DNA of 64,000 nucleotides from Streptomyces sp. HUAS MG91 (GTDB lineage: Bacteria > Actinomycetota > Actinomycetes > Streptomycetales > Streptomycetaceae), in contig NZ_CP159534.1 in assembly GCF_040529335.1 (NCBI RefSeq), positions 558,001 through 622,000 on the forward strand, in the 5' to 3' direction. The notes below the pieces were generated by a model. The model searched no databases and had not been told where the DNA came from. It was given only the letters and a program-made list of their open reading frames with translations. Positions 50,384 to 58,514 of the stretch are shown here, piece after piece (position 1 is the first letter of the stretch; every line of letters starts with the position of its first letter). The translations under genes and the position numbers were made by a program.

Positions 50384-51064
50384 GTGAGTGAGAAGAACGA
50401 CAAGCCCGCGCGGCACGGCCTGCGGGCCTATCACGACAAACGGAACTTCGATCGCACGCGGGAGCCGCACGGTGAGCAGGAGGGTGCGGACGGGCGGGGC
50501 GGGCCAGACGGATCGGACGACGCGCCCAGCCGGCCCGTGTTCGTCGTCCAGATCCACGACGCGAGCACCCTGCACTTCGACTTCCGCCTGGAGGTCGACG
50601 GGGTGCTCAAGTCCTGGTCCATCCCCGAAGGGCCCTCCACGGACTCCCGGGACAGGAGGCTCGCCCTCCCCACCGAGGACCATCCCTTGTCGTACAAGGA
50701 CTTCGAAAGGCTGATCCCGGAGGGTGAGTACGGCGGCGGCACCGTGATCGTCTGGGACGCCGGTACGTACCGGCCCACCAGCCACGACGCACACGACCGG
50801 CCGGTGCCGTTCGGCGACGCGCTCGACGGCGGGCACGCCACCTTCGAACTGCACGGCGACAAGCTGCACGGCCAGTACGCCCTCACCCGCTTCCACGGTC
50901 GCGAGGAGAAGTCCGGCGCCGCCTCCGCGAAGCCGACCTGGCTGCTCGTGCGCACCGGATCCGGGCACCACGGCGACGGCACCCCCGACCCGCGGCGCGC
51001 CCGGTCGGTCCGCAGCGGACGCACCCTGCGCCAGGTCGCCGAGGCGGAAGGAGGTGAGCGGTGA
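50384..51064 (+). CDS. LigD 3'-phosphoesterase-domain protein
   Basis: A 226-residue stand-alone PE domain of the bacterial non-homologous end-joining system. The core reads FVVQIHDASTLHFDFRLEVD (His and Asp of the Mn2+ site), VLKSWSIPEGPS and 'EDHPLSYKDFE', 'GEYGGGTVIVWDAGTY'. It trims 3'-phosphate and ribonucleotide ends before ligation. It starts at GTG 50384 and its stop codon overlaps an ATG (TGATG at 51062-51066) that should be the ligase start, so the two are translationally coupled. The N-terminal 45 residues are charged and probably disordered. Confidence 0.92.
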   Translation: MSEKNDKPARHGLRAYHDKRNFDRTREPHGEQEGADGRGGPDGSDDAPSRPVFVVQIHDASTLHFDFRLEVDGVLKSWSIPEGPSTDSRDRRLALPTEDHPLSYKDFERLIPEGEYGGGTVIVWDAGTYRPTSHDAHDRPVPFGDALDGGHATFELHGDKLHGQYALTRFHGREEKSGAASAKPTWLLVRTGSGHHGDGTPDPRRARSVRSGRTLRQVAEAEGGER

Positions 51065-52076
51065 TGACCGGACTGCTGGACACACTGCCGCCCCACCTGG
51101 GGAAGGCCGCCTCTCCCCCGCCGCTCCCGGCACCGAACTGGCGGAGTCCCCCATGCTGGCGACCCTGAGCGACCGCCGCGACTTCCCCGCCGGCTGGATC
51201 TTCGAGCGGAAGCTCGACGGCGTCCGCGTCCTCGCCGTCCGCGAGAACGGGAAGGTGACACTGCGCTCCCGCTCCGGACGGAAGCTCGACGCCACCTACC
51301 CGGAGATCGTCGACGCCCTCGCCGCGCAGGACTGCGCGGACTTCACGATCGACGGCGAGATGGTCGCGTACGCCCACGGCCGCACCGACTTCGGACGGCT
51401 CCAGCAGCGCATGGGGCTCACCCGGCCCGCGGACGTGGCGCGGAGCGGCGTCGCGGTGACGTACTACGCCTTCGACCTGCTGCGGCTCGACGGCACCGAC
51501 CTGCGGCGCCTGCCGCTGCGCACTCGTAAGTCCCTCCTGCGGAACGCGTTGACGTTCCGCGCGCCCCTGCGGCTGACCACCCACCGCAACGAGGGCGGTC
51601 GCGAGCTCCTCGCCGACGCCTGCGCCCGGGGCTGGGAGGGGCTCATCGCCAATCGTGCGGACAGTCCCTACCGAGGGCGGCGCTCCGACGCCTGGCTCAA
51701 GCTGAAGTGCTCCCGGGGCCAGGAGTTCGTGGTCGGCGGCTTCACCGAGCCGACCGGCAGCCGGAAGGGCATCGGCGCCCTGCTGATCGGCTACTACGAG
51801 GACGGCCGGCTCCGCTACGCGGGCAAGGTCGGCACCGGATTCGACCAGAAGACCCTGACCGGGCTGAGAGACAGGCTCGACGAACTGCGGGTGGACACCT
51901 CGCCGTTCGACGGCCGCGTCGTCCAGCCCACCGCCCTCTGGACCCGGCCTCGCCTGGTGGCAGAAGTCGCCTTCTCCGAGTGGACGCGTGACGGCCTGCT
52001 GCGCCACCCCCGCTACCAGGGGCTGCGCGACGACAAGAAACCCACCGACGTGGTCCGGGAGCGGGCGGAGACATGA
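51054..52076 (+). CDS. ATP-dependent DNA ligase (LigD ligase domain); N-terminal frameshift suspected
   Basis: A ligase of about 340 residues. The nucleotidyl-transfer motif is FERKLDGVRVLAVREN (Lys of KxDGxR), with motifs III (YYAFDLLRLDG), IV (WEGLIANRADSPY) and V (DAWLKLKC), and an OB-fold C-terminus (FVVGGFTEPTGSRKGIGALL). It seals breaks in the NHEJ pathway. The frame opens at GTG 51054, but AGGAGG (51049-51054) overlaps that codon. The well-placed ATG at 51064 starts MTGLLDTLPPHLGKAAS in another frame that stops at 51168; adding one C in the CCCCC run near 51115-51119 joins it to the ligase frame. ATG 51153 (MLATLSD) is the fallback start. The stop overlaps the next gene (ATGA). Confidence 0.88.
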   Translation: MSGDDRTAGHTAAPPGEGRLSPAAPGTELAESPMLATLSDRRDFPAGWIFERKLDGVRVLAVRENGKVTLRSRSGRKLDATYPEIVDALAAQDCADFTIDGEMVAYAHGRTDFGRLQQRMGLTRPADVARSGVAVTYYAFDLLRLDGTDLRRLPLRTRKSLLRNALTFRAPLRLTTHRNEGGRELLADACARGWEGLIANRADSPYRGRRSDAWLKLKCSRGQEFVVGGFTEPTGSRKGIGALLIGYYEDGRLRYAGKVGTGFDQKTLTGLRDRLDELRVDTSPFDGRVVQPTALWTRPRLVAEVAFSEWTRDGLLRHPRYQGLRDDKKPTDVVRERAET

Positions 52077-52735
52077 CCGGAAAGCAGAACGTGCTGCGGA
52101 TCCTGCTGCGCGAGCACGGCCGTACCTACGCCGCCGAGGCGGGCATCCGGCTGAGGAACACGCCGCAGCCGCTGTACCGGACGCTCGTGCTGGCGAGCCT
52201 GCTGAGCGCCCGGATCCGCGCCTCGGTCGCCGTCGCGACGGCGCGGGCGCTGTACGACGTCGGCCTGCGCGACCCGCGCCGCACGGCGGACGCCACGTGG
52301 CAGCAGCGCGTCGACGCGCTGGGCAAGGGCGGCTACCGCCGCTACGACGAACGCACCGCCACCCAACTCGGCGACGGAGCAAGGCTGTTGCTGGACGACT
52401 TCGGCGGGGATCTGCGGACGGTGCGGGAGTGTGCGGACGGAGACGTCGACGAGCTGCGTGCCCTGCTGCGCCGCACCCCGGGCCTCGGCCCGGCCGGCGC
52501 CGACATCTTCCTGCGCGAGGTGCAGGACGTCTGGCCCGAGTACGCGCCGTTCCTGGACGCGAAGGCCCTTCAGGGCGCCGAGCGCCTCGGGCTGCCGGAC
52601 GAGCCCGCCGCACTCGTCCGAGGTGCGGGAGACGCCTCCCCCGCACGCCTGGCCGCGGCGCTCGTCCGTGCGGCGCTGGACCAGCGGGTGGCGGACGACT
52701 GTCTGGCCCGGGCCCGCCGACGGACGGCAGACTGA
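52073..52735 (+). CDS. Helix-hairpin-helix (endonuclease III-like) DNA-binding protein
   Basis: A 220-residue helical protein with the layout of the HhH-GPD superfamily: 'LVLASLLSARIRASVAVATA' (about 38-57) corresponds to the Nth-family N-terminal helices, and a helix-hairpin-helix is seen in LLRRTPGLGPAGADIFLREV (about 132-151). The C-terminal FeS-cluster Cys residues of Nth are absent, and the catalytic Lys is not obvious, so it may bind DNA without glycosylase activity. It lies between the ligase (ATGA overlap) and the LigD polymerase, which suggests a role in end joining. I know of no experimental function. Confidence 0.75.
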   Translation: MTGKQNVLRILLREHGRTYAAEAGIRLRNTPQPLYRTLVLASLLSARIRASVAVATARALYDVGLRDPRRTADATWQQRVDALGKGGYRRYDERTATQLGDGARLLLDDFGGDLRTVRECADGDVDELRALLRRTPGLGPAGADIFLREVQDVWPEYAPFLDAKALQGAERLGLPDEPAALVRGAGDASPARLAAALVRAALDQRVADDCLARARRRTAD

Positions 52736-52754
52736 CGGAAGGAGGTACCGCCCG

Positions 52755-53687
52755 ATGACCGGGTCCCAGTCCCTGCGGATCGGCCGCCGCACGCTGACAC
52801 TGCACCGGCAGGACAAGAGGCTGCTGCCCGCCGGCGGAACCGGTGGCGCGATCACCAAGGGGGATCTCACCGCCTACTACCGGGAGATCGCCCCGTACAT
52901 GCTGCCGCACCTGCGCGGACGCCCGTTGATGCTGGAACGTCTTCCCGACGGTCTCGACGGCTCCCGCGTCATGCAGAAGAACGTCCCCGGATACTTCCCG
53001 GACTGGGTGCACCGCGTGAAGGTGCCCAAGGAGGGCGGCAGTGTCGTGCACCCGGTCTGCGAGGACACGGCGACGCTGGTGTACCTCGCCGACCAGGCGG
53101 CCGTCACCCTGCACCGCTGGCAGTCGAGGGTTTCGGACATCCGGCACCCCGACCGCGTGGTGTTCGACCTCGATCCGTCCGGGGAGGACGATTTCGAGGC
53201 GGTCCGCGAGGCCGCCCGCCAGGTGCGGGAACTCCTCGACCGCGTCGGTCTCGCCTCCGGGGCGATGACCACGGGCTCGCGCGGTCTGCACGTGGTGGCC
53301 GTCCTCAGGGGCAGATCCACCGTCGACGACGTCCACGACTTCGCCAAGAAGGCGGCCGACACCCTGGCGGCGGCCCACCCCGACCGGCTCACCACCGCCG
53401 CGCGCAAGGCGGACCGGGGCACCCGGCTGTACCTGGACGTGCAGCGCAACGCCTACGCGCAGACAGCCGTCGCCCCGTACACGGTGCGCGCGAAACCCGG
53501 CGCCCCCGTGGCCACCCCGATCGCCTGGGACCAGCTCGACGACCCCGGACTCACGGCACGGCGCTGGACCATCGCCAACGTCGTCGACCAGGCCCGGTCG
53601 GATCCCTGGGGCGGTCTGGCACGCAAGGGACGGGCGCTGGGACCCGCCCGCGACGCGCTGCGGAAGCTGTCGGACGAACACGCCTGA
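52755..53687 (+). CDS. LigD polymerase/primase-domain protein
   Basis: A 310-residue archaeo-eukaryotic-primase-type polymerase that adds ribonucleotides at DNA ends during NHEJ. The catalytic acidic motif is RVVFDLDPSGEDDFE (about 132-146), the nucleotide site has TTGSRGLHVVA, and YLDVQRNAYAQTAVAPYTVR holds the third acidic residue. AAGGAGG lies nine bases before ATG 52755. It is the last gene of the split LigD operon. No ku gene is visible in the window, so Ku must be encoded elsewhere. Confidence 0.94.
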   Translation: MTGSQSLRIGRRTLTLHRQDKRLLPAGGTGGAITKGDLTAYYREIAPYMLPHLRGRPLMLERLPDGLDGSRVMQKNVPGYFPDWVHRVKVPKEGGSVVHPVCEDTATLVYLADQAAVTLHRWQSRVSDIRHPDRVVFDLDPSGEDDFEAVREAARQVRELLDRVGLASGAMTTGSRGLHVVAVLRGRSTVDDVHDFAKKAADTLAAAHPDRLTTAARKADRGTRLYLDVQRNAYAQTAVAPYTVRAKPGAPVATPIAWDQLDDPGLTARRWTIANVVDQARSDPWGGLARKGRALGPARDALRKLSDEHA

Positions 53688-53765: not shown

Positions 53766-54467
53766 TCACCCGGCCTGGGCCGAGGCCAGCGCGGCGAGGA
53801 GGTCGGCCAGTCCGCCGGGCGCCCGCCCCCGCAGACGGGACGACGTGTAGACGCACTGCCCCGAGCGGGCGATGCGGTGCCCGGTCGCCGCGAGCCGGGC
53901 CGCGAGATCCCGGTCCTCGCCGCTCGCGTACGGGCGGAAGCCGCCGACCCGCGCGTAGGCCGCCGCGGAGACCCCCAGGTTGGCGCCGTGCACATGCGGG
54001 TGGGTCCACGGGAGCCGCGTCTGCACGGGCCGGGTGCGGAAGTAGTCGCGGTCGTGCAGCTCCGCGACGGTGCGCGGCCCTGCCGAGCGGATCAGGCGGA
54101 TGGTGCCCAGGACCGCGTCGTAGTGGTGGCGGGCCCACGTGATCTGGTGGCTCAGCCAGTCGCCGGGGACCAGGGTGTCCGCGTCGGTCATGGCCAGCCA
54201 GGTGTCCGGTCCGGGCAGCAGGTCCAGTGCGCGGTCCACTCCCCGGGCGCGTGCCACCCCCACGTTGTGCGCGTCGCTGGGGACGACGATCACCCCCTGC
54301 GCGGAGGCGATGGCCGCGGTCGCGTCCTCGCAGGCGTCCGCGACGACGACGGTCACGACCGGCAGGGGGACCGCCCGGGCCGCTCTGCGGACACTGCGCA
54401 GACAGGCCGCGATGCCGCTCTGTTCGTTGTGCGCCGGGATCACGACGGCCACAGCCGCAGGATTCAT
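53766..54467 (-). CDS. Family-2 glycosyltransferase
   Basis: A 233-residue GT-A enzyme. The N-terminal nucleotide-sugar site is VVIPAHNEQSGIAACLRSVR (about 8-27), the DxD-like metal motif is AMTDADTLVPGDWL (about 93-106) and the acceptor region has GANLGVSAAAYARVGGF and the ED of GEDRDLAARL. There is no membrane segment. It is last in a four-gene overlapping operon; its ATG overlaps the methyltransferase stop (ATGA). The donor and acceptor sugars are unknown. Confidence 0.9.
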   Translation of the reverse strand: MNPAAVAVVIPAHNEQSGIAACLRSVRRAARAVPLPVVTVVVADACEDATAAIASAQGVIVVPSDAHNVGVARARGVDRALDLLPGPDTWLAMTDADTLVPGDWLSHQITWARHHYDAVLGTIRLIRSAGPRTVAELHDRDYFRTRPVQTRLPWTHPHVHGANLGVSAAAYARVGGFRPYASGEDRDLAARLAATGHRIARSGQCVYTSSRLRGRAPGGLADLLAALASAQAG

Positions 54468-55078
54468 GCGAGGCCCTCGGACTGTGCGGGGCTCAGGATC
54501 GACCCGGCGTGCGTGCGCCGTTCGTGGACGGTGAGGGTGAAGTCCGGGTCGTCGTAGCGGGCCAGCAGCCCGAGGTCGTCGCTGTCCGCCAGTTCGTCGG
54601 CGATCTGACGGCCGGTACAGGTGTGCTCGGGCACCGGGTGGTTCCAGTGCACGGCGACGAGGTGGCCCCCGGGCTCGAGACTCCTCGTACCGTGCGCGAG
54701 GATGCGACCGCGGTCGGCGGAGCCGAAGTAGTACAGCAGTTCCGAGAGGACCACGAGATCGAACGAGCCCTCGGGCCACTCATCGGGGACGACCATCTGC
54801 CGTACGGTGACGTTCTCGAGGCCGGCCGTGTTCCGGCGGGCTCGCTCGACGGCCCGGTCGACACGGTCGGTGGCGAGCAGGCGTCGGCACCGGTCGGCGA
54901 GGAGTTCGGTGAGGGCACCGACGGAGCACCCCGGTTCGAAGGCGCGACGGTAGAGCGGGCGGGGCAGCGCCGCGGCGGTCAGACGGTACTTGCGCTGGTC
55001 GTACCAGCGTTCGGCCAGATGCCACGGGTCGTCGGTGTCCGCGTACTGGTCGTCGAAGTAGCCGGCCGGGGTGTTCAA
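54464..55078 (-). CDS. NodS-like SAM-dependent methyltransferase
   Basis: A 204-residue class I methyltransferase. Motif I is FEPGCSVGALTELLADRC (about 44-61), the acidic ribose contact is in LLATDRVDRAV, and 'FDLVVLSELLYYFG' and 'LEPGGHLVAVHWNHPV' complete the fold. The N-terminus 'YFDDQYADTDDPWHLAERWY' resembles the NodS group, which N-methylates deacetylated glucosamine in nodulation factors. It starts at TTG 55078, whose TTGA overlaps the deacetylase stop. With the PIG-L deacetylase upstream, an N-methylated amino-sugar is a reasonable guess. Confidence 0.85.
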   Translation of the reverse strand: MNTPAGYFDDQYADTDDPWHLAERWYDQRKYRLTAAALPRPLYRRAFEPGCSVGALTELLADRCRRLLATDRVDRAVERARRNTAGLENVTVRQMVVPDEWPEGSFDLVVLSELLYYFGSADRGRILAHGTRSLEPGGHLVAVHWNHPVPEHTCTGRQIADELADSDDLGLLARYDDPDFTLTVHERRTHAGSILSPAQSEGLA

Positions 55079-55845
55079 AGGATCACCGTCTCGAAGTTCC
55101 GGGTGTGGTGGGCGATCTCCTGCGGGGGCAGGACGGGCGGAAGGTGGTCGCCTCGTGGTTCGAGCTGGCTGGTGAACCGGGCGAGCGCGGCCTTCTTGCG
55201 GTCGAGGGCGCGCGGCGACAGCGGCAGAACGGCTGCGCGGTGCCAGGGCACGCGCGGATCCTGGGGATGTGCCCAGTGCCACATCCACACCGGGTACGAC
55301 CAGAGGGTGACGCCGGAGCGACGCGCGGCGCTCCGGGCGGCGCGTCCGGCTGCTTCGTGGTCGCTGTGCAGGTCGTTGCTCCAGGGCGCGACAAGGAGTG
55401 CGGCGCCGGCGTCGTCCAGCAGCGCGCCGATGTGCCGCGCCGCCTCGTCCTCGCAGCGATCGAGGGCGGTGTCGGGGAGTCCGGCGTGCGCGGGCGCGCT
55501 GTGGGCACCCAACTCCGCCAGCGCGGCGCGCAGTTCGCCGCGACGACGGTCCTTGAGAGCGCTGGCGTCCCGTGGGCCGATGGCGCCGTGGGACGCCTCG
55601 CCGTCGGTGAGGCACAGCGTGTGCACGGGTGTTCCGACGCTGTGGAGTGCGGCGATCGTCCCGCCGAATCCGAGGACCTCGTCGTCCGGGTGCGCGGCCA
55701 CGACGACGACCGGGCCCGCGGGGAGGCTCGCGTGGGGCAGGCGATCGGGCAGCCCGGCTGCCAGCCAGCGGGCTTCGTCGGTGCCCTCGGCGTCGATCGC
55801 CCGTGCGGCCGCCCGACGGTGGGCGGCGGGTGGCGCGGGCTTCAT
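55075..55845 (-). CDS. PIG-L/LmbE-family deacetylase
   Basis: A 256-residue zinc-dependent deacetylase. The metal/catalytic motif AHPDDEVLGFGG is at about residues 50-61 and the second His motif HSDHEAAGRAA at about 155-165. Family members remove N-acetyl groups from glucosaminyl conjugates (MshB, Mca, GlcNAc-PI). Overlaps by ATGA with the acyl-CoA dehydrogenase-like gene upstream and by TTGA with the methyltransferase downstream, so all four proteins are translated from one message. Confidence 0.92.
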   Translation of the reverse strand: MKPAPPAAHRRAAARAIDAEGTDEARWLAAGLPDRLPHASLPAGPVVVVAAHPDDEVLGFGGTIAALHSVGTPVHTLCLTDGEASHGAIGPRDASALKDRRRGELRAALAELGAHSAPAHAGLPDTALDRCEDEAARHIGALLDDAGAALLVAPWSNDLHSDHEAAGRAARSAARRSGVTLWSYPVWMWHWAHPQDPRVPWHRAAVLPLSPRALDRKKAALARFTSQLEPRGDHLPPVLPPQEIAHHTRNFETVIL

Positions 55846-56855
55846 CGGGTGTGTCCTTCCGTGGCGCGGTCGCCGAGCGCGTGGCCGAGGGCGGCCAGGT
55901 CACCCTCGGCATGGTGCTGGCGCACGTAGACCGTGAGGTCCGCGGCCGTGCGTGCGTGTTCCTCGTCGCGGCACAGCGGACCGGCGCCGGTCGCGCGGCC
56001 CACACGGTCCAGGACGTCGGCGCAGGTCTGTGCGGCCACGGCGCGGACCCGCATGCTGCGCAGGGCTGCCTGCCGCGCCCGGTCGTGGGGGTCGGCGTCG
56101 ATGTCGGCGGCGGCTTGCCGCAGGACGGTGTCCGCGGCGTGCAGGGCGATGTCGACGGCGCCGAGGTGGGCCGCGGCGTGCTCGTTCAGGCGGCCTTCAC
56201 TGGCCCGCCGGTACAGGGTGTCGGCGACCGCGTGCGCCCCGCCGAGCCAGCACGCCGCGACACCGATGCCGCCGTGCTGGAAGCCCGGGCGTCGCAGGTA
56301 GTCCTCGGGGTCCCCCACCGGGCGGGCCACTGCCTGGTCGAAGGAGACGTCCAGACTGTCGCTGCCGGCCATCCCGAGCGCCGGCCAGGTTCCCTCGACC
56401 GCGCGGACGCCGTTCTGGTCCAGCGCCACGGCGAACAGCCGGTAGCCGTCGTCGGCCTCGGCGGTCACCAGGGCGTGCGTGCACACCCGGGCTCCGGAGC
56501 AGAAGGGTTTGACGCCGTCGAGCGTCCAGCCCTGCGCCGTGGGCGTGGCCCGGACGACCGGCTGCGGCGGCCGCGCCGCCCATACGCCCCAGCGTTGCGC
56601 GGCGGTGGGACGCGTGCCCTCGATCTCGTGCAGGACGGCCACCGCGTCCAGGTGTCCCTCGGCCAGGCGCGCCAGCGACAGGTCACGGCGCCCGAGCGCC
56701 GCCAGTGCTTCGAGGCGGCGCGGGGTGTCCACGCCGGGCAGCGGCACCTCCGCGGCGGACGTGGCGACGAAATCGGCGAAGAGCCGGGCGGCCCGCGCCG
56801 GTTCACCGCCTACCGCTTCCACGTCGTCGGTGGACAGCAGAGACATCTGCGACAT
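55842..56855 (-). CDS. Acyl-CoA dehydrogenase-like flavoprotein
   Basis: A 337-residue protein shorter than typical acyl-CoA dehydrogenases (about 380). A middle beta domain includes 'GWTLDGVKPFCSGARVCTHALV' (GVKPFCSGARVCTHALVTA) where ACADs read 'G.K.wis.g', followed by the helical domain 'VDIALHAADTVLRQAAADI'. The catalytic Glu equivalent is not obvious, and the N-terminal helical domain is shortened, so it may be an acyltransferase- or hydroxylase-like variant. ATG 56855 (MSQMSLLS) has GGAG seven bases upstream. First of the four overlapping genes. Confidence 0.82.
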   Translation of the reverse strand: MSQMSLLSTDDVEAVGGEPARAARLFADFVATSAAEVPLPGVDTPRRLEALAALGRRDLSLARLAEGHLDAVAVLHEIEGTRPTAAQRWGVWAARPPQPVVRATPTAQGWTLDGVKPFCSGARVCTHALVTAEADDGYRLFAVALDQNGVRAVEGTWPALGMAGSDSLDVSFDQAVARPVGDPEDYLRRPGFQHGGIGVAACWLGGAHAVADTLYRRASEGRLNEHAAAHLGAVDIALHAADTVLRQAAADIDADPHDRARQAALRSMRVRAVAAQTCADVLDRVGRATGAGPLCRDEEHARTAADLTVYVRQHHAEGDLAALGHALGDRATEGHTR

Positions 56856-56913: not shown

Positions 56914-57168
56914 TCACAGACCGGCAGGCTCTTCCCTGCCGGTTTCCGGGGCGGGACGAAGGCCGGGTCCCACCTCTCGCACCAGCAGGGCATCCGCCGC
57001 CGCCAGCGCCTCGGCGACGGTGCGCGAGGCGGTCATGACGCACAGGGTGTAGGTGATGTCCTCGAGCGCGCGGGCGGTCCCGTCGTCGGGGCACTGCTCG
57101 TGCGCGAACCGCGCCACGGCATACCGCGCCAGCAGGGCGCGCACAGCGGAGGGCGACGGAGTGATCAT
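56914..57168 (-). CDS. DUF5133 small protein
   Basis: An 84-residue protein (MITPSPSAVRALLARYAVAR...RALEDITYTLCVMTASRTVA) matching the Streptomyces DUF5133 family, whose members are short, helical and of unknown function. GGAGC lies just upstream of ATG 57168. It sits between the STAS-ANTAR-GAF regulator gene and the four-gene acyl/glycan operon on the same strand, 58 bp before the latter, and may share its transcript. Confidence 0.75.
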   Translation of the reverse strand: MITPSPSAVRALLARYAVARFAHEQCPDDGTARALEDITYTLCVMTASRTVAEALAAADALLVREVGPGLRPAPETGREEPAGL

Positions 57169-57284
57169 GGATGCTCCAAGGAAACAGGCGACACCCCGAA
57201 AAGGTGTGGCAGCCGTACTCGTGAACGCCTGTTGTCCCAAGCGAGCACCCGAGTGCCCCCCACACCCATGGTCAAACAGAGAGG

Positions 57285-58514
57285 TCAGCCGCGCGACCCG
57301 GGCCGCGGCCACGAGGCCCGGGTGTGCAGGTGTTCCAGGGCGCTCAGGACGACGGCCCGCCGGTACCAGGAGAGCCACATCGCGAGCTCCCCGGCCAGCG
57401 ATTCCAGTGCCGTCCTCCGGCCGTCGGGCAGCCGGTGCCCCGGCCGGCGGTGATGGACGGTGATCACACCCGCGCCGACACGGTCGTCGTGGAGGGCCGG
57501 CACGCCCAGCAGGGCGCGGCTTCCCGCGGCGAGCGCCGCCCGTCCCGCCGGTGACGTCCCGACGTTCAGATCGGTGGCGAGGTCCGCCACGTACACGGTC
57601 TGCGCCTTGGCGTGCACAAGGACGGGAAGGGACAGCGGATCCTTCACCTCGGCGACCTCGTTGCGGTACTCCGCCTCCAGTCCTGCGTGCCCCTCCAGGA
57701 TCAGCGCTCTGCCCAACGCCGCGTACGGCAGATGCACTTCGACGGCGTCCGCGTCCGCCAGCGTGGCTGCCCGGGACACCACGGTCCGCAGGACCTGCTT
57801 GAAGTCGCCCGCGTCCAGGTCGCCGCCGGCGAGGAGGGCCAGCCGCGGGGCGGCGTTCGCGTCCCGTCCCGTCAGGCCCGGGAACCAGGCCCGGCCCGGT
57901 GCCGGCGGCCCGGCGGCGACCACTTCCGCGGAGAGGATCCGCACCGGCACGTTGTGGTGCTGGGAGGCCACGCGCAGCAGGTCGAACGCCGCGGACGGGG
58001 AGCGGAGTCCGTAGCGCTCGAGCACGATTCCCTGCGCCATGCCGATCACCTCTCTGCTGCGGGACTTGGCGGTCAACCCGAACACCTGCTGTTGCAGCTC
58101 GGCGAACCTGTCCTGCGTCAGTTCGGACCCGTGCGTTCCCGTCAGCGCCCGGGCCGCGGCGGCGGGCAGCTCCGGCAGGGCCGCGAGAGCCGCCTCCACG
58201 GTCTCGTACACCTGAGGCCTGGGCGCCGACGACGTGGCGAGCGCCGCCCGCGCCGCCGGGGGCGTCGCCACCAGCAGTACGGTGCGGCCGGCACCCGGAC
58301 GCAGATGCGCCGCCAGGGCGCGTGAGGCCGCCGTGCCCATCAGCCGGGCCGCCGTCAGATCAAGCACCAGCCGTTCATCGGCGGGCGGCGCCGATCCGAG
58401 GAAGGGTTCCACCAGAGCCTCGACGCTCACCGCGTCGAAGTCTCCGGAGAGGCGCACGAGCCGCACGGGAACCGCCTTCACCCACCGGGCCGTCGCCTCC
58501 GGAACACGGGTCAC
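57285..58514 (-). CDS. STAS-ANTAR-GAF regulatory protein
   Basis: A 409-residue multidomain regulator. Residues about 15-110 form a STAS-like domain (LVLDLTAARLMGTAASRAL), about 125-195 an ANTAR RNA-binding domain (SREVIGMAQGIVLERYGLRS, PSAAFDLLRVASQHHNVPVR) and about 225-395 a GAF domain. ANTAR proteins act as antiterminators on paired hairpins, and GAF domains sense ligands. Domain order differs from the common GAF-ANTAR form by the added STAS and reversed order. It is the first of a same-strand set leading into the DUF5133 and acyl/glycan operon, so it may control their transcription. Confidence 0.85.
   Translation of the reverse strand: MTRVPEATARWVKAVPVRLVRLSGDFDAVSVEALVEPFLGSAPPADERLVLDLTAARLMGTAASRALAAHLRPGAGRTVLLVATPPAARAALATSSAPRPQVYETVEAALAALPELPAAAARALTGTHGSELTQDRFAELQQQVFGLTAKSRSREVIGMAQGIVLERYGLRSPSAAFDLLRVASQHHNVPVRILSAEVVAAGPPAPGRAWFPGLTGRDANAAPRLALLAGGDLDAGDFKQVLRTVVSRAATLADADAVEVHLPYAALGRALILEGHAGLEAEYRNEVAEVKDPLSLPVLVHAKAQTVYVADLATDLNVGTSPAGRAALAAGSRALLGVPALHDDRVGAGVITVHHRRPGHRLPDGRRTALESLAGELAMWLSWYRRAVVLSALEHLHTRASWPRPGSRG

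Follow-up and report, generated by a model that had tools for sequence, protein, structure and literature searches.

A conserved four-gene cassette in Streptomyces sp. HUAS MG91, a candidate biosynthetic unit for a modified amino sugar

The window, as we call the whole stretch of 64,000 nucleotides from Streptomyces sp. HUAS MG91 that was analysed, contains a cassette of four genes encoding a protein with the acyl-CoA dehydrogenase (ACAD) fold, a PIG-L de-N-acetylase, a NodS-like methyltransferase and a small family-2 glycosyltransferase (GT2), on which this work is centred (Table 1). The genes are real and translationally coupled. The ACAD and PIG-L genes share an ATGA stop/start overlap (55845/55842), the PIG-L and methyltransferase genes a TTGA overlap (start 55078, stop 55075) and the methyltransferase and glycosyltransferase genes again an ATGA overlap (54467/54464), as a first-pass annotation of the same DNA had described. 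Three of the proteins are clearly recognised by Pfam: the PIG-L protein scores 95.8 bits (cut-off 28.2), the glycosyltransferase 59.9 bits with Glycos_transf_2 (cut-off 23.3) and the methyltransferase 48.4 bits with NodS (cut-off 24), its score with Methyltransf_11 being slightly higher (50.6 bits). In the ACAD protein the middle domain alone is recognised (37.2 bits, cut-off 33.3). The catalytic motifs, AHPDDE (A51-E56), H160, D162 and H163 in the PIG-L protein and D95-A96-D97 and E184-D185 in the glycosyltransferase, show at least 97% conservation in their alignment columns.

Table 1. Genes of the cassette and its immediate neighbours in the window.
Feature	Position	Strand	Remarks
ACAD-fold flavoenzyme	56855-55842	minus	337 aa; flavin presumed from the fold; noncanonical, with a shortened N-terminal domain
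PIG-L (LmbE) zinc de-N-acetylase	55845-55075	minus	256 aa; AHPDDE and HxDH motifs intact
NodS-like S-adenosylmethionine (SAM) methyltransferase	55078-54464	minus	204 aa; TTG start overlaps the PIG-L stop
Small GT2	54467-53766	minus	233 aa; DxD and ED motifs
DUF5133 protein	56914-57378	minus	next upstream gene, with a 58-bp gap to the ACAD start
LigD primase-polymerase domain protein	52431-53687	plus	convergent neighbour (non-homologous end joining); outside the cassette
ATP-dependent DNA ligase	51054-52076	plus	LigD-like by position; neighbour, outside the cassette

The four genes are strongly co-conserved. When GTDB contigs were searched with the window ACAD, 188 relatives were obtained, the closest of them from Streptomyces; the best 80 were kept and are referred to below as the 80 actinobacterial loci (individual loci and genomes are given by L and G numbers). 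All four genes are together in 74 of them. The PIG-L and methyltransferase genes both adjoin the ACAD gene in 77, and in 78 when L073 is added, where the PIG-L match appears with a proteobacterial query; in L047 the contig ends just past the ACAD gene, while L095 continues for about 1.4 kb past it with no PIG-L or methyltransferase match. The PIG-L and methyltransferase genes form one open frame in 52 of the 77 loci, and several matches carry an NCBI label for a single 'bifunctional' protein. The RefSeq name, 'bifunctional PIG-L family deacetylase/class I SAM-dependent methyltransferase', corresponds to a fusion of the second and third genes of the cassette and gives neither pathway nor substrate.

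A further search covered 246 genomes sampled evenly from the phylum of the window, taken to be Actinomycetota (ACAD at E ≤ 1e-15, methyltransferase at E ≤ 1e-10). The ACAD is present in 23 genomes, the methyltransferase in 27 and both in 21, and in all 21 the two genes are on the same contig and strand, less than 1 kb apart. The hypergeometric P of this co-occurrence, 5e-23, serves as a guide only, as the genomes are related. G053 and G153 have the ACAD alone, and six genomes (G115, G122, G133, G232, G252 and G263) the methyltransferase alone, of which G122, fetched as L137, proved to have the ACAD too. Pairwise distances among the four proteins (74 loci and the window) correlate at 0.82 to 0.86, partly as a result of shared species ancestry. 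Co-conservation and fusion thus support a single functional unit, as the first-pass annotation had proposed; the opposite outcome that it had allowed for, genes that are not co-conserved, is contradicted.

Plasmids are the only named sample outside Actinomycetota. From plasmid searches, 24 regions were fetched, picked by organism among the matches listed; for L118 and L146, which carry no annotation, a local search located the genes. The triad of ACAD, deacetylase and methyltransferase is found in 22 of the 24 regions. Its carriers are the Proteobacteria Acinetobacter (two), Comamonas, Cupriavidus, Pandoraea, Paracoccus (two), Novosphingobium, Sphingobium, Sphingomonas, Sulfitobacter, Roseomonas, Komagataeibacter, Jiella, Bradyrhizobium and Methylobacterium aquaticum, as well as Deinococcus (three), Nostoc and the actinobacteria Rubrobacter and Kitasatospora. 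In Cupriavidus the PIG-L gene is set apart, about 3 kb away and on the opposite strand. The set has a patchy distribution within the window's genus. Of the 37 genomes compared (G000 and 36 congeners), only G000, G005, G023, G024 and G029 combine a strong methyltransferase match with the three remaining genes alongside. In G024 there are two such strong matches to the methyltransferase, on separate contigs; G036 has one (8e-31), the neighbours of which are absent from the stretch examined. Because the distribution is patchy and the cassette is often located on plasmids, it has probably spread horizontally.

The cassette is interrupted by foreign genes in two species of Deinococcus, D. radiodurans and D. 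wulumuqiensis. A helicase gene (L111, 6249-8861) is located between the PIG-L and methyltransferase genes and the TnpB gene (L123, 5828-7180) between the ACAD and PIG-L genes. The Deinococcus ACAD proteins are long, at about 780 amino acids (L111 3193-5532; L143 5696-8044; L123 3448-5820). The first 400 residues of the D. radiodurans fusion match no family at E 0.001; a single match below the cut-off, to Glyco_hydro_53 (E 0.013), gives a lead towards a glycosidase-like domain at the amino-terminus.

The deacetylation and methylation steps are well supported. In all six fetched loci of family f27, which is Rubrobacter-like (L125, L129, L130, L133, L136 and L137), and on the Rubrobacter plasmid L114, the PIG-L protein is replaced by a CE4 deacetylase, with the gene order polysaccharide deacetylase, ACAD, methyltransferase, flavin adenine dinucleotide (FAD) reductase and glycosyltransferase. 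The L114 deacetylase belongs to Polysacc_deac_1 and is closest to NodB (E 9e-33). Since two unrelated deacetylases fill the same slot, removal of an N-acyl group is likely to be the conserved step. The best solved match of the methyltransferase is 4isc (E 5e-32 over residues 24-184), which we take to come from Pseudomonas syringae; this closest solved relative is listed just as 'Methyltransferase', with no function given. NodS follows (1e-14), and an N-3'' gentamicin methyltransferase is a weak later match (4e-5). The fusion of PIG-L and methyltransferase suggests that methylation of the freed amine follows deacetylation. The amine would be on a sugar, because of the relationship to NodB and NodS, the weak match to an aminoglycoside N-methyltransferase and the presence of a glycosyltransferase.

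The likeness to NodB and NodS, which carry out the de-N-acetylation of N-acetylglucosamine and then a SAM-dependent N-methylation, is one of scheme. In NCBIfam the window methyltransferase is nearest to NodS, at 69.3 bits against an equivalog cut-off of 300; the L114 deacetylase scores 113 bits with NodB against a cut-off of 240. Compared with Nod-factor synthesis, the window has a PIG-L protein instead of a CE4 deacetylase and an additional flavoenzyme, and no NodC-like or NodA-like gene is recognised in the cassette. The 233-residue glycosyltransferase has no NodC match at E 0.001 in NCBIfam, a library that we assume to contain a NodC model, and its best weak matches are TIGR04283, EpsD and MftF. 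A search of the whole genome for NodA (PF02474) gave no match, the control of that search being likewise without a match. Read from its sequences, the cassette would work like a NodB-NodS pair and not like a Nod-factor system; what the first-pass annotation had said of deacetylation with NodS-like methylation is supported, and there is no sign of a lipochitin-oligosaccharide system, in keeping with its remark that NodA and NodC are missing here.

The predicted model of the ACAD protein (predicted local distance difference test score 92.8) has the ACAD fold with a short N-terminal domain, 312 to 325 of its residues aligning to targets of 362 to 416 residues. Among the first 16 rows returned by Foldseek, nine are DszC, TdsC, 5z8t ('flavin-containing monooxygenase'), DnmZ or KijD3; one row is labelled 'putative acyl-CoA dehydrogenase', and the others, five of MAB_4123 and one of Rv3094c, have labels that name no function. 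In fold and profile the protein thus resembles, not exclusively, the ACAD-fold flavin monooxygenases DszC, 5z8t, DnmZ, TdsC, KijD3 and MsuC. The nitrososynthases or amino-sugar N-oxygenases among its relatives are ACAD-fold flavoenzymes that act on amino sugars: KijD3, for which there is a structure containing an amino-sugar nucleotide, and DnmZ rank near the top of the structural rows, and both are found among the profile matches together with 3mxl, presumably ORF36. The window protein differs from these three in having only about 20% identity and a shorter N-terminal domain, and the cassette lacks genes of a thymidine diphosphate (dTDP)-sugar pathway. DszC, TdsC and true acyl-CoA dehydrogenases match the window protein as well as these three do.

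When 23 proteins from several phyla are aligned, residues H68, G114, G181, F192, A201, G205, R271, G290, D306 and Q313 are invariant. HMMER places the glutamate of butyryl-CoA dehydrogenase (motif YEGT, PDB entry 4u83), which we take to be the catalytic residue, opposite a glutamine in the D. radiodurans homologue. At this position of the C-terminal domain, as judged by sequence alignment only, Q313 is present in all 23 proteins. The RQHHAE motif, invariant in a first alignment (A1), is not universal: across phyla R312 is conserved in 21 of the 23 proteins and the two histidines are not kept. With glutamine in place of the catalytic glutamate, ordinary acyl-CoA dehydrogenation is therefore unlikely, and 'acyl-CoA dehydrogenase-like', as the gene had been labelled earlier, is not supported as a description of function. 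The reductase carried by the six f27 loci and by L114, most like dioxygenase ferredoxin-NAD reductases in the latter, hints at an oxygenase.

Stress-related genes are frequent around the plasmid cassettes. A gene named catalase is present in eight of the 22 annotated regions (L112, L117, L120, L121, L139, L141, L142 and L147, of which L112 and L147 share one block), trehalose or GlgE genes in five (L112, L113, L117, L120 and L147) and Ku in two (L121 and L124); L144 has a 'catalase family protein'. When the first 14 plasmid records were searched whole, four of the ten catalases over the cut-off were located no more than 10 kb from the cassette, against an expectation of 0.75 (P about 0.003). 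In the window, too, a LigD protein is encoded next to the cassette.

Our preferred reading, which we consider about evenly poised between right and wrong, is that the cassette is one biosynthetic unit for a modified amino-sugar glycoside or glycan that serves stress survival. The GT2 enzyme would add or extend an N-acetylated sugar, the PIG-L enzyme would strip the acetyl group and the NodS-type enzyme would methylate the amine thus exposed, just as NodS follows NodB when Nod factors are made. The ACAD-fold flavoenzyme would perform an oxidation other than acyl-CoA dehydrogenation, its substrate most likely being the amino sugar, and the product would protect under oxidative, desiccation or DNA-damage stress. 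We infer the substrate, the order of the glycosyltransferase and flavoenzyme steps, the oxidation and its target, the product and the stress role. An improbable but specific version has the flavoenzyme N-oxygenating the deacetylated, N-methylated amine to give an N-methyl hydroxylamine or nitrone sugar, a genetically encoded radical-trapping sugar that would act together with catalase and end-joining repair and would have spread across phyla on stress plasmids.

Several observations weigh against the preferred reading. The set is rare (21 of the 246 genomes), and two of the 24 plasmid regions do not contain the triad: L116 has the ACAD only and L144 the methyltransferase and glycosyltransferase only. 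The glycosyltransferase is the least constant part, not being found in five of the 80 actinobacterial loci (four of these are cut by contig ends) and being absent from some plasmid cassettes, for example L119. None of the four cassette proteins reaches an NCBIfam equivalog cut-off, so that the substrates of the enzymes are not fixed; the nearest families, all far below their cut-offs, are NodS for the methyltransferase, BshB1 for the PIG-L protein, TIGR04283 for the glycosyltransferase and SfnB/DszC for the ACAD. Profile searches with the latter also return CarC and short-chain acyl-CoA dehydrogenases, and in VIA-align true acyl-CoA dehydrogenases score much as monooxygenases do, which means that the fold by itself does not tell the two functions apart. 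Ku is only weakly associated with the cassette (two of nine within 10 kb in the same 14 plasmids), and few neighbours of the 80 actinobacterial loci are stress genes (catalase in four, Ku in two), apart from a ferritin-like gene mainly in Cryobacterium. The association with stress genes is therefore supported in the plasmid sample and occasional in Actinomycetota, and it describes a shared setting, not a function. The stress context noted in the first-pass annotation is supported in so far as it recurs in part of the unrelated bacteria.

A tentative alternative is that the cassette tailors the envelope or an exopolysaccharide, so that the deacetylated, N-methylated residues decorate a surface glycan and are not part of a free small molecule. 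Three further glycosyltransferases are present in the same run in two sphingomonads (L121 3051-9406; L142 3813-10099), a related glycosyltransferase cluster stands beside the ACAD and methyltransferase in the actinobacterial locus L131 (9433-12379), and the Deinococcus gobiensis cassette adjoins a UDP-galactopyranose mutase and glycosyltransferases. The glycosyltransferases of the window, L121, L114 and L112 weakly match exopolysaccharide glycosyltransferases. However, the run in the window has one small glycosyltransferase and no polymerase or flippase gene, and in two Acinetobacter plasmids the set is followed by a major facilitator superfamily transporter, which would fit a small molecule.

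It is quite unlikely that the product is an aminated, N-methylated derivative of trehalose or trehalose-6-phosphate. This idea derives from Comamonas antarctica, where otsA and otsB enclose the four genes in a closely spaced run (L113 5945-10941), and from the otsBA genes that adjoin the cassette in two Acinetobacter plasmids, treZ in Paracoccus and glgE in Cupriavidus. Yet the proteobacterial otsA, otsB, treZ and glgE queries matched none of the 80 actinobacterial loci, with flanks of up to 8 kb, and trehalose genes are common in stress islands in their own right.

Equally low weight is given to a true dehydrogenase that acts on an acyl chain, with a glycolipid as product, because the catalytic glutamate and genes for acyl metabolism are missing. 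The fold and the ranking level with short-chain acyl-CoA dehydrogenases agree with it, as does the best match of the Deinococcus homologue, which is butyryl-CoA dehydrogenase; against it, glutamine replaces the catalytic glutamate in every aligned protein, and the cassette contains no acyltransferase or acyl carrier gene. The small glycolipid considered in the first-pass annotation likewise finds no acyl or lipid enzyme in the cassette. A pathway to a low-molecular-weight thiol resembling mycothiol or bacillithiol, to which the weak NCBIfam matches of the PIG-L protein might point, is very improbable, as these fall far short of their cut-offs (BshB1 55.9 against 182.5, BshB2 53.7 against 195.25 and MshB 29.6 against 224.35) and none of the four genes encodes an MshA/BshA-type GT4 or a cysteine ligase.

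The three-enzyme core of noncanonical ACAD-fold flavoenzyme, de-N-acetylase and NodS-type methyltransferase, usually accompanied by a GT2, occurs in Actinomycetota (including Rubrobacter), Proteobacteria, Deinococcus and a cyanobacterium, and radiation-tolerant species are among its carriers. If the product is a protective metabolite, it would represent a type of stress molecule that present descriptions of desiccation and oxidation tolerance overlook, and Nod-factor chemistry would then be one use of a wider scheme of deacetylation and N-methylation. The fusion proteins and the exchange of PIG-L for a NodB-like enzyme bring the first two chemical steps within direct experimental reach. No description of the cassette was found in the literature searched, with supplements outside reach and subscription journals mostly so. 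In passages of PMC12029717, PMC10653896, PMC13118837 and PMC13130816, ACAD or methyltransferase genes are named, none of them tied to the cassette.

Next to the cassette in the window, the LigD primase-polymerase gene ends 78 bp from the glycosyltransferase stop. The ligase and primase-polymerase genes are side by side (51054-53687, plus strand) and, convergent with the cassette, have the look of a split LigD. On the other flank there are genes for a GAF/ANTAR/STAS protein and for a STAS protein, so the DNA-repair and stress-sigma neighbours reported in the first-pass annotation are a fair description by domain. The DUF5133 gene, which the first-pass annotation had not mentioned, may be co-transcribed with the cassette.

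When the flanking genes of the 80 actinobacterial loci were clustered, no partner was common to more than 11 of them among the 40 largest clusters listed. The cross-genus clusters that were scanned with Pfam are an ATP-binding cassette (ABC) ATPase (11 loci), a zinc alcohol dehydrogenase (nine), a LuxR-type regulator (seven), a GT2 that is part of the cassette in L068 (seven), a cluster with no family (six) and a ferritin-like gene (ten). Most of the other listed clusters of six or seven loci are confined to Cryobacterium or Agreia. Of the ten ferritin-like loci, nine are from Cryobacterium and one is from Arthrobacter citreus; in L056 a ferritin-like gene (PF00210, 7431-7925) is located directly upstream of the ACAD gene.

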